Positions 1,736 to 39,565 of a stretch of DNA of 58,054 nt are shown in pieces (position 1 is the stretch's first letter; each line of letters starts with the position of its first letter). Position numbers and translations under genes: made by a program. Under the pieces are notes generated by a model. That model worked only from the letters and a program-made list of their open reading frames with translations. It did no database searches and had not been told where the DNA came from. Source of the stretch: Bacillota bacterium (lineage in GTDB: Bacteria > Bacillota_I > Bacilli_A > RF39 > UBA660); assembly GCA_015059425.1 (NCBI GenBank), contig SVAM01000010.1:1-58054 (forward strand), given 5' to 3'.

Positions 1736-3439
1736 ATGGGAAATAAAAAGAAGTTATTAATTTTAGTAGGAGTATTACTATTAGGAGTTGGTATATCTTT
1801 TGCTTTCTTTGCAATACAAGCTATTTTTGAAGGTGAAGGATCAAAAATAGATACACAGACTGCATTAATAGGTAATGCCACTATAGAAGTAACTGGCTCA
1901 ATAGATTTAAATGAATCAGAAACAGAAACTGGAGTTTTACCGGGACATAAAAGTATATCGAAAATAAAAGTTACAGCGGATAACAATGGATATGCAAGTG
2001 ATTTTGATGTTGGTTTTAAACTAGTATGGAATGGAATAAACCCTTTAGCAACAGATTTAAAATTTACTATATATAAAACAACAGATGCTGATGCAGTAAT
2101 AAATAAAACATGTACAAGAAAAACAAAAACAGCAGGTAAATATATTTATTATAGTGAAGAATGTGAATTAACAAGTGATAAAATAGATTTAAATTCACCA
2201 TTAGTAGAAGATGGAACAATAGCAGGAAATAGTACAGTGTCAACTAAAGAAATATTGTTACCTGAAGAGGTAATGACAGCAACTAATAATCCGGAAGCTA
2301 ACGCAGTATATTATTATATAGTAATAGAATTTCCAAATACTACCGTAAATCAAAATGCAGATATGACTGTAGGTAGTGATTTAAAATCATTTAGTGGTGT
2401 AATAAAGGCAGAAAAAGTTATTGATGATGCTACTGGTAGTGAGTATATTTTAGCTAATACTCCATTACAAACAGATGATCCAGATTTTTCAAAAACAAGC
2501 TGTACAAAAGGAACAAACGAAGGTGGAGATTGTGGAGAAGAAACAGTAGGTCTGTATAAATGTATAATAAAAGAGGATGGCGAATGTGCTAAACAAGAAG
2601 AGTTAAGTAGTTTGGATACAACAAATTTAAAAACAACATATTATTATCGTGGAGACGTAAATGATAACTATGTAAAATTTGCAGGTTTTTATTGGAGAAT
2701 TATAAGAATCAACGAAAATGGTTCAATTAGAATGATATATCAAGGAAGAACCAAAGATGAAAATGGTAATGAATTAGAAATACAAAATTTCGGAGATGAA
2801 ACTCAACTTGCTGAAACAAGTTCATTTAATACAGATTACAACCGAGCAGAATATGTAGGATTTAAATATGAATTGGAAAATGCACATGGAACAGATGATA
2901 AGTCGACTATATTAAGTGCATTAGAAACATGGTATGCAAAAGAAGATAATGAACTACAAAATTATGAAGAATACTTAGATACAGAATCAGGTTTCTGTGG
3001 AGATAGAACTTCATATACAGATTATAGCGGAATAACCGCAGGTGGAGGTACAGGAACAACTACAACTTATTATGGAGCATATATAAGAAATGTAACAAAT
3101 AAAGCACCATCATTTAAGTGTTCAGATAATGAAAATGATTTATACAAAACAAAGATAGGCTTAATAACAGCAGATGAAGTTGCATATGCTGGAGGGGTAG
3201 ATGGTGTTAATAATTATAGCTATTACTTATATACATGTACTTGGTATTGGACGCTTTCGCCGGGCCTCTTCAATGGAACGATTGCGTATGTGTTTGGCGT
3301 GTACTGGGATGGTTTCTTGGGCGACGACAACCTCGTTGACGACCCGGATGGTGGTGTCCGCCCAGTTATAAATCTGAGGGCTGATAACCTGATAATTTCA
3401 GGAAGTGGTACAGAAACTGATCCTTATGTCATTTCATAA
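1736..3439 (+). CDS. Secreted surface protein with TasA/SipW-type signal and a candidate DGR variable C-terminal domain
   Basis: 567 aa. The N-terminus (KKKLLILVGVLLLGVGISFA, then FFA) resembles the signal peptides of SipW-dependent, TasA/CalY-type secreted proteins. Residues ~30-230 are Thr/Asn-rich beta sequence. Residues ~300-567 form a C-terminal domain (FYWRIIRINENGSIRMIY ... GLITADEVAYAGG ... YWTLSP ... GVRPVINL) of the kind often annotated DUF6273, a frequent carrier of C-type-lectin-like variable regions. The last part, about codons 500-550, switches abruptly from A/T-ending to C/G-ending codons. A paralogue at 21484 shares the architecture but not the G+C-rich cassette. Likely exported and cell-surface or matrix associated, with ligand binding through the C-terminus (inference). 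A terminator follows. Confidence 0.75.
   Translation: MGNKKKLLILVGVLLLGVGISFAFFAIQAIFEGEGSKIDTQTALIGNATIEVTGSIDLNESETETGVLPGHKSISKIKVTADNNGYASDFDVGFKLVWNGINPLATDLKFTIYKTTDADAVINKTCTRKTKTAGKYIYYSEECELTSDKIDLNSPLVEDGTIAGNSTVSTKEILLPEEVMTATNNPEANAVYYYIVIEFPNTTVNQNADMTVGSDLKSFSGVIKAEKVIDDATGSEYILANTPLQTDDPDFSKTSCTKGTNEGGDCGEETVGLYKCIIKEDGECAKQEELSSLDTTNLKTTYYYRGDVNDNYVKFAGFYWRIIRINENGSIRMIYQGRTKDENGNELEIQNFGDETQLAETSSFNTDYNRAEYVGFKYELENAHGTDDKSTILSALETWYAKEDNELQNYEEYLDTESGFCGDRTSYTDYSGITAGGGTGTTTTYYGAYIRNVTNKAPSFKCSDNENDLYKTKIGLITADEVAYAGGVDGVNNYSYYLYTCTWYWTLSPGLFNGTIAYVFGVYWDGFLGDDNLVDDPDGGVRPVINLRADNLIISGSGTETDPYVIS
3239..3382 (+). other. Candidate DGR variable region (G+C-rich cassette)
   Basis: Within the surface protein gene, bases 3241-3360 contain 67 G/C of 120 by my count, against about a quarter in the flanks. 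Between the framework words YWTLSP and GVRPVINL many codons end in C: GGC, CTC, TTC, GGC, TAC, TTC, GGC, GAC, GAC, AAC, CTC, GAC, GAC. That is what results when AAC codons of an adenine-rich template are randomised at A positions by a retroelement. The paralogue keeps the same framework (YWTISP ... VRPVINL) in ordinary A/T-rich codons. No reverse transcriptase or template repeat is visible in this window, so the assignment is inferential. Confidence 0.5.
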
Positions 3440-7372: not shown

Positions 7373-7449
7373 TGGTCGAGAAGACAGGATTTGAACCTGC
7401 AACCCCTTGGTCCCAAACCAAGTGCACTGCCAAATTGTGCTACTTCTCG
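7373..7449 (-). tRNA. tRNA-Pro (anticodon UGG)
   Basis: On the minus strand a full cloverleaf: acceptor CGAGAAG/CTTCTCG, anticodon loop TTTGGGA (anticodon TGG) on stem CTTGG/CCAAG, T-arm with GGTTCAAATCC, and an encoded CCA (7373-7375). It is the distal member of a two-tRNA transcript with tRNA-Arg. Confidence 0.95.
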
Positions 7450-7455
7450 ATATTA

Positions 7456-7532
7456 TGGTGCGCCCTAAGGGAGTCGAACCCCTAACCTTTAGATCCGTAG
7501 TCTAACGCTCTATCCAATTGAGCTAAGGGCGC
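7456..7532 (-). tRNA. tRNA-Arg (anticodon ACG)
   Basis: Minus strand: acceptor GCGCCCT/AGGGCGC, D-arm TAGCTCAATTGGATAGAGC, anticodon loop CTACGGA (anticodon ACG, wobble A expected to be deaminated to inosine), GGTTCGACTCC T-arm, CCA encoded. Six bases separate it from tRNA-Pro. Confidence 0.96.
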
Positions 7533-14466: not shown

Positions 14467-14709
14467 ATGAATAAAGTAGTAAAAATATGTTTAGTAAGTA
14501 TAATTATAATATTGTTAATATTTGTTTTCTATTTATTTAATATAAAATCATATATTACTGGAAATTACGTACAAAACACTAATGATTGTAAAATAGGATA
14601 CGATTGTGTATGTATAAAAGAATCATGTATATGCAAATTTAAAAAATATTGGGTTGAAAATAAAATAACATGTCAGAAAAATATATTAAATAATGAACAA
14701 ATTAATTAA
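14467..14709 (+). CDS. Small Cys-rich membrane-anchored protein
   Basis: 80 aa starting one base after the reductase stop codon, with no good ribosome binding site of its own. One hydrophobic segment (residues 5-27), then a short external or periplasm-like domain with six cysteines (CKIGYDCVCIKESCICKF ... KITC). The spacing does not match a known Fe-S or zinc motif that I can name; disulphides or metal binding are possible. Its position as last gene of the phosphoketolase/redox operon suggests it may be an anchor or electron acceptor for the reductase (inference). The operon terminator follows. Confidence 0.6.
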   Translation: MNKVVKICLVSIIIILLIFVFYLFNIKSYITGNYVQNTNDCKIGYDCVCIKESCICKFKKYWVENKITCQKNILNNEQIN

Positions 14710-19028: not shown

Positions 19029-19121
19029 GGAGTAGTACTCAAGAGGCTGAAGAGGGGTCCCTGCTAAGGATCTAGGTCGGCGAATGCTGGCGCGGAGGTT
19101 CAAATCCTCTCTACTCCGCCA
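19029..19121 (+). tRNA. tRNA-Ser (anticodon GCU)
   Basis: Class II tRNA of 93 nt: acceptor GGAGTAG/CTACTCC, discriminator G, anticodon loop CTGCTAA (GCT), a long variable arm (GGTCGGCGAATGCTGGCGC region), T-arm GGTTCAAATCC, CCA encoded. Confidence 0.96.
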
Positions 19122-21483: not shown

Positions 21484-23157
21484 ATGGAGAACAAAAAGAA
21501 GCTATTTTTGATAATTGGTGCACTTTTGGTAATAGTTGGAATATCATTTGCTTATTTTACAATGAAAATAAAAGTAGAACAGAACAGTTCTGGAATTACT
21601 GTTACCACTAAAGAAATAGGTAATGTTAGTGTATTAATTGAAGGGAATTTATCATTTAATGATAAAGATATATTGCCAGGCTATAAGAATATATCAGCAA
21701 TTAAATTAACAGCAAAAGTTGATAAAGGTTCGCCAAAAGTAAAATATTATGATTTGATATGGAATGGGTCAAATACTTTATCAAGTTCTTTAGATTATAA
21801 AGTTTATAAAGCAGATGCTCCCGGAAAATTAAGTGTAAATTGTACTCCGAGAGAACAATTTTTAACTGAAGGAATAAGATATTTTCATGATTGTATTATG
21901 ACAAATGAAGATAAATTAGAACCAATATCGAGTGGGACAATAGGAATAAATGAGGATACAACAAAAGTGGTTTTAAAAGAACAAGAGAGTATACTTGCTA
22001 CAAATACTGGGACAGTACAATATTATTATGTAGTATTAGAATTTCCTAATAAAGATGAAGAACAAATACAAGTAGAAAATGGTAAGTTTAAAGGTGAAGT
22101 AACAATAGATCCTGCACAACCATTAACGCCAACTGAAGAAATACTTGCTAATATGACTAGTATAGTTGAGGAAGATCCATCAAAAGATTTTAGTGTTGTT
22201 TCAACAGAAGAGACAGAAGGTGTAATTTATGAAAAAGTTGTAGAAGATACAACAACTACTTTAACAAATACTACTTCATCAAATGTTAAAGCAACATTAT
22301 TATCTGAAATACAAGAAAGAAAAACATATTACTTTTCAGGAGCTCCTAAAGATAATTATGTTATATTTGCAGACCATTATTGGAGAATAATAAGAATAAA
22401 TGAAAATGGTTCAATTAGGATGATTTATAGTGGTAATGTAAATAGAATAGGGTCAAATAAAAAGACAGTTCTTGCCAATGGATATAATGATTCAATAAAT
22501 AAATATACAAGTTATACTACTAGTGAATTTAATAAATCAACTAATGATAATGCTTATGTAGGATTTAAATATGAAAAAAATAAATTAAGAGGAACAATAA
22601 ATAATTCAACTATGTTTAATGTATTAACTTCATGGTATCAAACAAATATAGCGAATAAAGGCTATGATGAATATATAGATGCTGATGCTGGCTTTTGCGG
22701 TGATAGAACAGCTTATGATAATAAAGAAGGTACTAAAACTAGTACAAGTTCAGGCATTGGTAATCATGTCACCTATTATGGAGCATATATAAGAAATTAT
22801 ACTAATAAGACCCCAACATTTAATTGTGCCCATAGTGATGACTTATATAAAACAAAAGTAGGATTAATAACAGCAGATGAAGTAGCATATGCAGGGGGAG
22901 TATTTTATAAAGCTAATACTAGCTATTATTTATATACTGGTTATAGATATTGGACTATTTCTCCGAGTTATTATGATTCAAATGAAGAGGAGCCAATTAA
23001 AGCAAGATTAGTTGATGTAAATGTAGATGGAGGAATGGGATATGGTAACACGTATGATTCTAATGAATCAGTACGTCCTGTTATAAACTTAAAATCAACT
23101 GTAATATTATATGGTTCGGGAACAATACAAGATCCTTATATAGTAAGTTTAAATTAA
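21484..23157 (+). CDS. Secreted surface protein, undiversified paralogue of the 1736 protein
   Basis: 557 aa. Same plan as the protein at 1736: SipW-type signal (KKKLFLIIGALLVIVGISFA, then YFT), a Thr-rich middle, and a C-terminal domain from ~residue 280 with DNYVIFADHYWRIIRINENG, GLITADEVAYAGG, YWTISPSYYDSNEE and SVRPVINLKS. In the segment matching the G+C-rich cassette of the first copy, codons here are ordinary A/T-ending ones (AGT TAT TAT GAT TCA AAT GAA). It is therefore either not a retroelement target or has lost that status. Predicted exported; role unknown. Confidence 0.75.
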   Translation: MENKKKLFLIIGALLVIVGISFAYFTMKIKVEQNSSGITVTTKEIGNVSVLIEGNLSFNDKDILPGYKNISAIKLTAKVDKGSPKVKYYDLIWNGSNTLSSSLDYKVYKADAPGKLSVNCTPREQFLTEGIRYFHDCIMTNEDKLEPISSGTIGINEDTTKVVLKEQESILATNTGTVQYYYVVLEFPNKDEEQIQVENGKFKGEVTIDPAQPLTPTEEILANMTSIVEEDPSKDFSVVSTEETEGVIYEKVVEDTTTTLTNTTSSNVKATLLSEIQERKTYYFSGAPKDNYVIFADHYWRIIRINENGSIRMIYSGNVNRIGSNKKTVLANGYNDSINKYTSYTTSEFNKSTNDNAYVGFKYEKNKLRGTINNSTMFNVLTSWYQTNIANKGYDEYIDADAGFCGDRTAYDNKEGTKTSTSSGIGNHVTYYGAYIRNYTNKTPTFNCAHSDDLYKTKVGLITADEVAYAGGVFYKANTSYYLYTGYRYWTISPSYYDSNEEEPIKARLVDVNVDGGMGYGNTYDSNESVRPVINLKSTVILYGSGTIQDPYIVSLN

Positions 23158-39400: not shown

Positions 39401-39485
39401 TGGTGCACGTGGAGGGACTTGAACCCCCATGGAACTAACCGCTAGATCCTAAGTCTAGTGCGTCTACCAATTCCGCCACACGTGC
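39401..39485 (-). tRNA. tRNA-Leu (anticodon UAG)
   Basis: Minus strand class II tRNA of 85 nt: acceptor GCACGTG/CACGTGC, anticodon loop CTTAGGA (TAG) on stem CTAGA/TCTAG, long variable arm, T-arm GGTTCAAGTCC, CCA encoded. Confidence 0.95.
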
Positions 39486-39488
39486 AGA

Positions 39489-39565
39489 TGGTGGACCTCG
39501 TAGGACTCGAACCTACGACCGCCCGGTTATGAGCCGGATGCTCTAACCAACTGAGCTAGAGGTCC
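39489..39565 (-). tRNA. tRNA with CAU anticodon, probably tRNA-Ile2 (lysidine type)
   Basis: Minus strand: acceptor GGACCTC/GAGGTCC, D-arm TAGCTCAGTTGGTTAGAGC, anticodon loop CTCATAA (CAT), T-arm GGTTCGAGTCC, CCA encoded. It is not an initiator tRNA (the acceptor starts with a paired G1). C4-G69 and C5-G68 in the acceptor stem match TilS recognition in E. coli tRNA-Ile2, so AUA-reading tRNA-Ile is favoured over elongator tRNA-Met. Confidence 0.85.

Follow-up and report, generated by a model that had tools for sequence, protein, structure and literature searches.

Target genes that have outlived the diversity-generating retroelement (DGR) that served them are known from Treponema denticola, of which isolates without reverse transcriptase (RT) and template repeat (TR) keep target genes that are regarded as what remains of lost DGRs; when such a leftover variable region (VR) was compared with the template of another strain type, 19 of 21 mutations were located at A (PMC4891356). 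The DGR of Bordetella phage BPP-1 (brt, avd, TR, and VR/mtd) consists of one TR adjoining the RT and one target. The targets of Faecalibacterium prophage DGRs carry their variable region at the C terminus of a DUF6273 domain (PMC11792537), while Thiohalocapsa PB-PSB1 has multiple DGR loci in one genome, some of them degenerate, and targets that are diversified in trans (PMC10907252). A large survey found a single template in most DGRs with multiple VRs and reported one DGR with six templates (PMC6642488), and there are DGR surveys that search for repeats in the vicinity of the RT gene (e.g., PMC8144416).

Here, we analyzed a stretch of 58,054 nucleotides from a Bacillota bacterium (contig SVAM01000010.1 of assembly GCA_015059425.1), referred to as the window. 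With a probability of roughly 0.88, it contains the VR of a target gene the DGR of which was lost from the genome (Table 1). The tips of surface-type genes were once scrambled by an RT-based diversification system that has since been deleted from the same genome. The locus is thus of a known kind, an orphan VR as in T. denticola, where target genes were likewise orphaned by the loss of the DGR. Unlike the cassette-type DGR of T. denticola, the lost system was encoded by an operon with a fixed place in the chromosome, and the templates of the sister species are separate RNA genes. With BPP-1 it has in common a GxxxSQ RT, an Avd-type partner, the A-directed transfer from TR to VR, and a GC-rich 3′ end of the VR, but the sister species have as many as 25 unlinked templates along with tens of targets, and their operon additionally encodes a protein with MutS domain I. 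Many members of the present target family match DUF6273, the domain of the Faecalibacterium targets, yet the Faecalibacterium DGRs are phage-borne cassettes, whereas the present system is chromosomal and no close viral relative of it was found. In Thiohalocapsa PB-PSB1, RT, TR, and accessory gene lie together in each class, in contrast to the intact RT operon of the sister species, which has no template nearby. The system of the sister species, with autonomous template-RNA genes unlinked from the RT, is a variant for which we found no published equivalent in the open-access literature searched.

A GC-rich variable region in a family of target genes

The preliminary description of the window had pointed to a GC-rich island at 3239-3382, rich in C-ending codons and placed between the motifs YWTLSP and GVRPVINL, and had read it as the VR of a DGR. 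The island is real, with a G+C content of 0.558 at 3241-3360 (67 of 120 bases) against a window average of 24.7%, and it lies between the two motifs as described. The excess of C-ending codons was confirmed as well, given that C occupies 33% of third codon positions at 3239-3375 and 5% of those farther upstream in the same open reading frame. Only the 3′ bound had to be moved, since the effective end is formed by the CGCCCA codons at ∼3364, slightly inside the end given earlier; the ungapped match to a sister-species template (see below) begins at 3257. All other stretches of the window with 50% G+C over 120 bp (7373-7532, 19029-19121, and 39401-39565) contain tRNA genes, so that 3239-3382 is the sole protein-coding island of at least 50% G+C over 120 bp in the window. 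The GC-rich 3′ end of the VR is a candidate homing-initiation site.

Table 1. Target-type genes and variable region in the window
Feature	Coordinates	Strand	Remarks
Target-type gene	1736..3439	+	567 aa; N-terminal hydrophobic segment; C-terminal domain ends in variable region
Variable region (VR), probably of DGR origin	3251..3364	+	GC-rich, C3-rich; YWTLSP to shared 3′ end GGTGTCCGCCCA
GC-rich 3′ end of VR	3353..3364	+	Matches GGTGTGCGCCCA, the 3′ end of most sister-species templates
Second target-domain paralog in window	22318..23148	+	51% identity; no GC/C3-rich island

The target gene belongs to a family with roughly 20 paralogs, itself included, in the genome of the window (1.148 Mb, 18 contigs). 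The island is present in three of them, namely, the window gene and the genes at C14:22252 and C14:12671, and these two homologous islands in the same genome lend further support to the VR claim. In the remaining paralogs, as far as the tail was read, the share of third-position C (C3) at the island position is 0.03 to 0.13. The second paralog in the window is either old or was never diversified. Elsewhere in the genus, over 20 homologous tails of other species contain an island of this kind, and the two genomes in which target genes were counted have ∼40 (G017) and ∼60 (G020) of them. The Pfam model DUF6273 matched 12 of 25 aligned family members (best value, 4e-6), and no Pfam family matched the protein of the window gene itself. 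An AlphaFold prediction of the target domain from two window sequences reached a mean pLDDT of 30, a profile search of the family against PDB sequences gave chance-level matches only, and a search of IMG/VR with the target domain found nothing.

Adenine-directed differences, template-RNA genes, and the RT operon of the sister species

The best template for the window VR was found in a sister species (G020:C44; L124/L242), and a closely similar one is located in G019:C20. Over 84 nt aligned without gaps, the window VR mismatches the G020:C44 template at 20 of 31 A but only 10 of 53 non-A positions (Fisher p = 3e-5). Seven of these 10 non-A differences fall on third codon positions, and when only the first two positions of each codon are compared, which removes the effect of synonymous drift, the mismatches amount to 20 of 31 A versus 3 of 25 non-A positions (p = 7e-5). 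As the template comes from a sister species and not from the same species, differences at 10 of 53 non-A positions remain, and they count against the lost-DGR reading. The window VR and its paralog at C14:22252 differ at 24 of 31 template-A positions versus 10 of 53 others (p = 1.5e-7). As a positive control, the target on G020:C44 was compared with the template on the same contig, yielding mismatches at 23 of 41 A versus 2 of 74 non-A positions; a target on another contig of this genome (G020:C4) differs from the G020:C44 template at 27 of 41 A versus 4 of 74 non-A positions. Among 37 template-target pairs from G017 and G020, aligned with neutral scoring that did not favor A, the mismatch rate is 0.43 to 0.44 at A versus 0.07 to 0.18 at other bases. 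Weak pairs are to be expected in this set, because the same-genome pairing covered a subset of the templates, 7 of 11 from G017 and 8 from G020. Cognate-type templates in sister species, together with differences concentrated at template A, strongly support the DGR origin of the VR that had been proposed for the island.

The templates are carried by separate genes, located on contigs other than that of the MutS-like/Avd/RT operon. A search for AAY-rich template patterns yielded 35 sites in 21 of 36 genomes (2 in the reversed control), and a covariance model detected the template RNA in 32 of the 36 genus genomes, with 2 to 25 copies each. From 5′ to 3′, a unit comprises a TATAAT-like box (in 41 of 54 units, within 3 to 10 nt), GGTTAATCT, a short segment that varies, the template repeat, in most cases GGTGTGCGCCCA, and a conserved, structured 3′ region that ends in a hairpin, after which a T-run usually follows. 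A 9-bp closing stem between the 5′ and 3′ parts, in which GGTTAATCT is paired with the downstream AGATTAATC, is complete in 51 of 54 units. The 3′ region contains 22 pairs with 98.9% of the cells paired, 14 of the 22 showing compensatory changes on both sides, and pairing falls to 36 to 48% when the partner is slid by 1 to 3 columns as a control. Units are solitary or arranged in tandem, with a spacing of mostly ∼260 to 410 nt. Four template-RNA loci had no match in Rfam at E ≤ 1, and a family-level scan showed that the RNA is almost confined to the genus, with weak matches in three other genera. Template copies differ among themselves at AAY codons, and the machinery that rewrites targets may also rewrite one template from another. 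In the tandem arrays L129, L137, L140, L244, and L246, it is likewise at AAY codons that the template repeats vary, e.g., CAATGTG, CCGTGTG, CTATGTG, and CATTGTG.

The main RT of the genus has ∼372 amino acids and the motifs GLPIGNMTSQ and YVRYMDDF, and ∼20 genus genomes contain a copy of nearly full length with at least 70% identity. It is preceded by an Avd-type protein (phrog_3206, “Avd protein of DGR,” E = 2.3e-15; Pfam bAvd, 40.3 bits at a cutoff of 40), and the operon includes a MutS-like protein of 135 amino acids with MutS domain I (MutS_I, 1e-5). MutS-like accessory genes are known from DGR surveys; in the open-access literature that we searched, no MutS-like protein was found in a DGR context. 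No AAC-rich TR lies beside the operon in the flanks examined (up to ∼5 kb), and templates flanking the RT were rejected for the main RT class; the pattern search located the AAY-rich templates elsewhere. A search of IMG/VR with the main RT yielded relatives of only 25 to 31% identity, and given that the target domain had no match there either, a phage origin of the system is unsupported.

When we compared the occurrence of template RNA with that of the main RT or a fragment of it across the 36 genomes (25/0/7/4; Fisher p = 0.006), both were present in 25 genomes, seven had template RNAs with no close RT detectable, and the four without template RNA (the window genome, G015, G023, and G029) all lacked the main RT class. 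The presence of one is therefore correlated with that of the other, but the correlation is not obligate. In four genomes, RT genes are broken by stops or frameshifts while template RNAs are still present (G006:C43, G008:C6, G012:C50, and G001:C47). In these draft metagenome-assembled genomes (MAGs), the engine seems to decay before the templates, and to do so repeatedly, and the interrupted RTs of the relatives suggest that the system may have been lost more than once. Overall, the sister species probably possess a multitemplate DGR, in which a single MutS-like/Avd/RT operon that lacks its own template uses at most ∼25 autonomous template-RNA genes, each with a −10 box, closing stem, and terminator, for the rewriting of tens of targets. 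In such a system, template genes and target genes would evolve as two separate multigene families.

Probable loss of the engine from the window genome

The preliminary description had placed the RT and TR elsewhere in the genome, acting in trans, and this part of its claim is unsupported. The window genome is represented by one MAG, 95.7% complete, in which we found neither a DGR RT nor a template RNA. Of the two outcomes that had been named as speaking against a DGR, namely, a complete genome with no TR or RT and a lack of sequence variation across strains, the first is thus what this near-complete genome presents. Neither the DGR RT of the genus, used as a query at E ≤ 10, nor the Avd part of a composite query matched the window genome, and the AAY-rich template pattern and the template-RNA covariance model had 0 matches each. 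A DNA search of the genome for a template of the VR returned only other VRs and short matches. The sole RVT_1 protein in the genome (G000:C9:52770-53312; L008) is a retron-type RT of 316 amino acids, Ec107-like/III-A according to PADLOC, and was rejected as a DGR RT; the rewriting of target genes is not known from retrons. Its gene lies between genes for a transporter-like protein and a YchF-like GTPase, and related copies exist in several members of the genus.

The site from which the engine is missing could be located. In the relatives, the gene order UPF0160, MutS-like, Avd, RT, DUF378, and lipoprotein is conserved, while in the window genome the end of the UPF0160 match (C9:65639) is separated from the start of the DUF378 match (C9:65684) by 45 bp that contain no gene. 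This junction is an assembled empty site and not an assembly gap. Moreover, the RT-operon leader TATCTTAGTTATG..AGTATTATCTTAAC, which many RT-positive relatives have upstream of the MutS-like gene, lies in the window genome downstream of the target C14:22252, where it is followed by a MutS-like gene (C14:22713) cut to ∼100 amino acids, and a slightly diverged copy lies downstream of the target C14:12671. The simplest reading of the empty site and the leader copies is that the ancestral system was lost and left relics behind.

A DGR that is still active, with RT and template in the unassembled 4% of the genome or on an unbinned element from which the window VR continues to be rewritten, appears unlikely. 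Although a second, unlinked RT or a template could lie in the part missing from a MAG of 95.7% completeness, the chromosomal RT locus is covered by the assembly and is empty, and of the template RNAs, multicopy and dispersed in the relatives, none is present in the window genome. Trans-acting DGRs are documented in Thiohalocapsa PB-PSB1 (PMC10907252), and the window VR is hardly ameliorated, with a third-position C of still 33%; on the other hand, relics of the operon adjoin two targets, and the distant RT relatives in IMG/VR (25 to 31% identity) likewise argue against such an activity in trans.

Even less probable is a GC-rich fragment that was acquired horizontally or by gene conversion with no A-directed mutagenesis. 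It would account for a G+C content and codon usage sharply unlike those of the rest of the gene, but not for the ungapped alignment of the island to a template found within the genus, from which it differs mainly at A, nor for the recurrence of the same island at the same place in many targets of the genus, many of which are explained by templates from the same genome. Ordinary positive selection, or a quirk of codon usage, in a ligand-binding tip can hardly be credited: while the position of the island coincides with a plausible binding face, positive selection neither restricts differences to template adenines nor yields C-ending codons, and the paralogs of the same genome that have no island show a C3 of 0.03 to 0.13 at this place.

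If the island is the VR of a lost DGR, the ancestor, like most sister species, would have had an operon encoding a DGR-type RT together with an Avd-type protein and a protein with MutS domain I, and this operon would have served many separately transcribed template RNAs, each of ∼290 nt with its own 5′/3′ stem and one AAY-rich template repeat. The unlinked template RNAs are presumably used by the RT operon, and RT and Avd would recognize them via the closing stem and the 3′ structure. Template adenines would then be miscopied during reverse transcription, leaving random bases opposite A in the cDNA, which would replace the 3′ end of any of dozens of chromosomal targets sharing the GC-rich 3′ end; homing presumably works as in BPP-1. 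Since the miscopying of A leaves NNC and NNT codons, a GC- and C3-rich island would arise in an AT-rich gene, and with the operon and all recognizable template RNAs gone from the window genome, the last written VR sequence would be frozen and most likely no longer varies.

The consequence for the window itself is modest, given that a frozen VR has a precedent in T. denticola. RT operons without a nearby template, combined with independent template-RNA genes, would be missed by surveys that look for repeats around the RT. If our reading of the sister species is true, it adds a modular, many-to-many layout to the DGRs and provides a naturally occurring collection of template RNAs, conserved in their 5′ and 3′ structure, for working out recognition by RT and Avd. 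The active, interrupted-RT, and fully deleted states form a series in which the cost of ending the scrambling of surface proteins can be asked.

Additionally, a hairpin (GTTGCAAAATG-ACTCCT-CATTTTGCAAC) with no T-run is located ∼50 bp past both the L002 and the L003 targets on G000:C14 (∼14505-14535 and 4930-4960 in L409), with a single stem-base change in the second copy; it may function in homing or as a terminator. The genus also harbors a second, classical DGR type, with an IGNLTSQF RT and an AAC-rich template close by, upstream or downstream (L091 in G014:C2, L092 in G013:C73, L093 in G002:C32, L094 in G029:C26, and L095 in G011:C18). The templates adjoining these RTs were rejected as a source of the window VR, none being among its best matches. 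A further RT class, with the motifs IGN[YF]TSQWFAN and YIRYMDDMVLF (L099 in G031:C25, L100 in G027:C36, and L102 in G016:C174), is ∼40% identical to the main DGR-type RT over the best-matching part.
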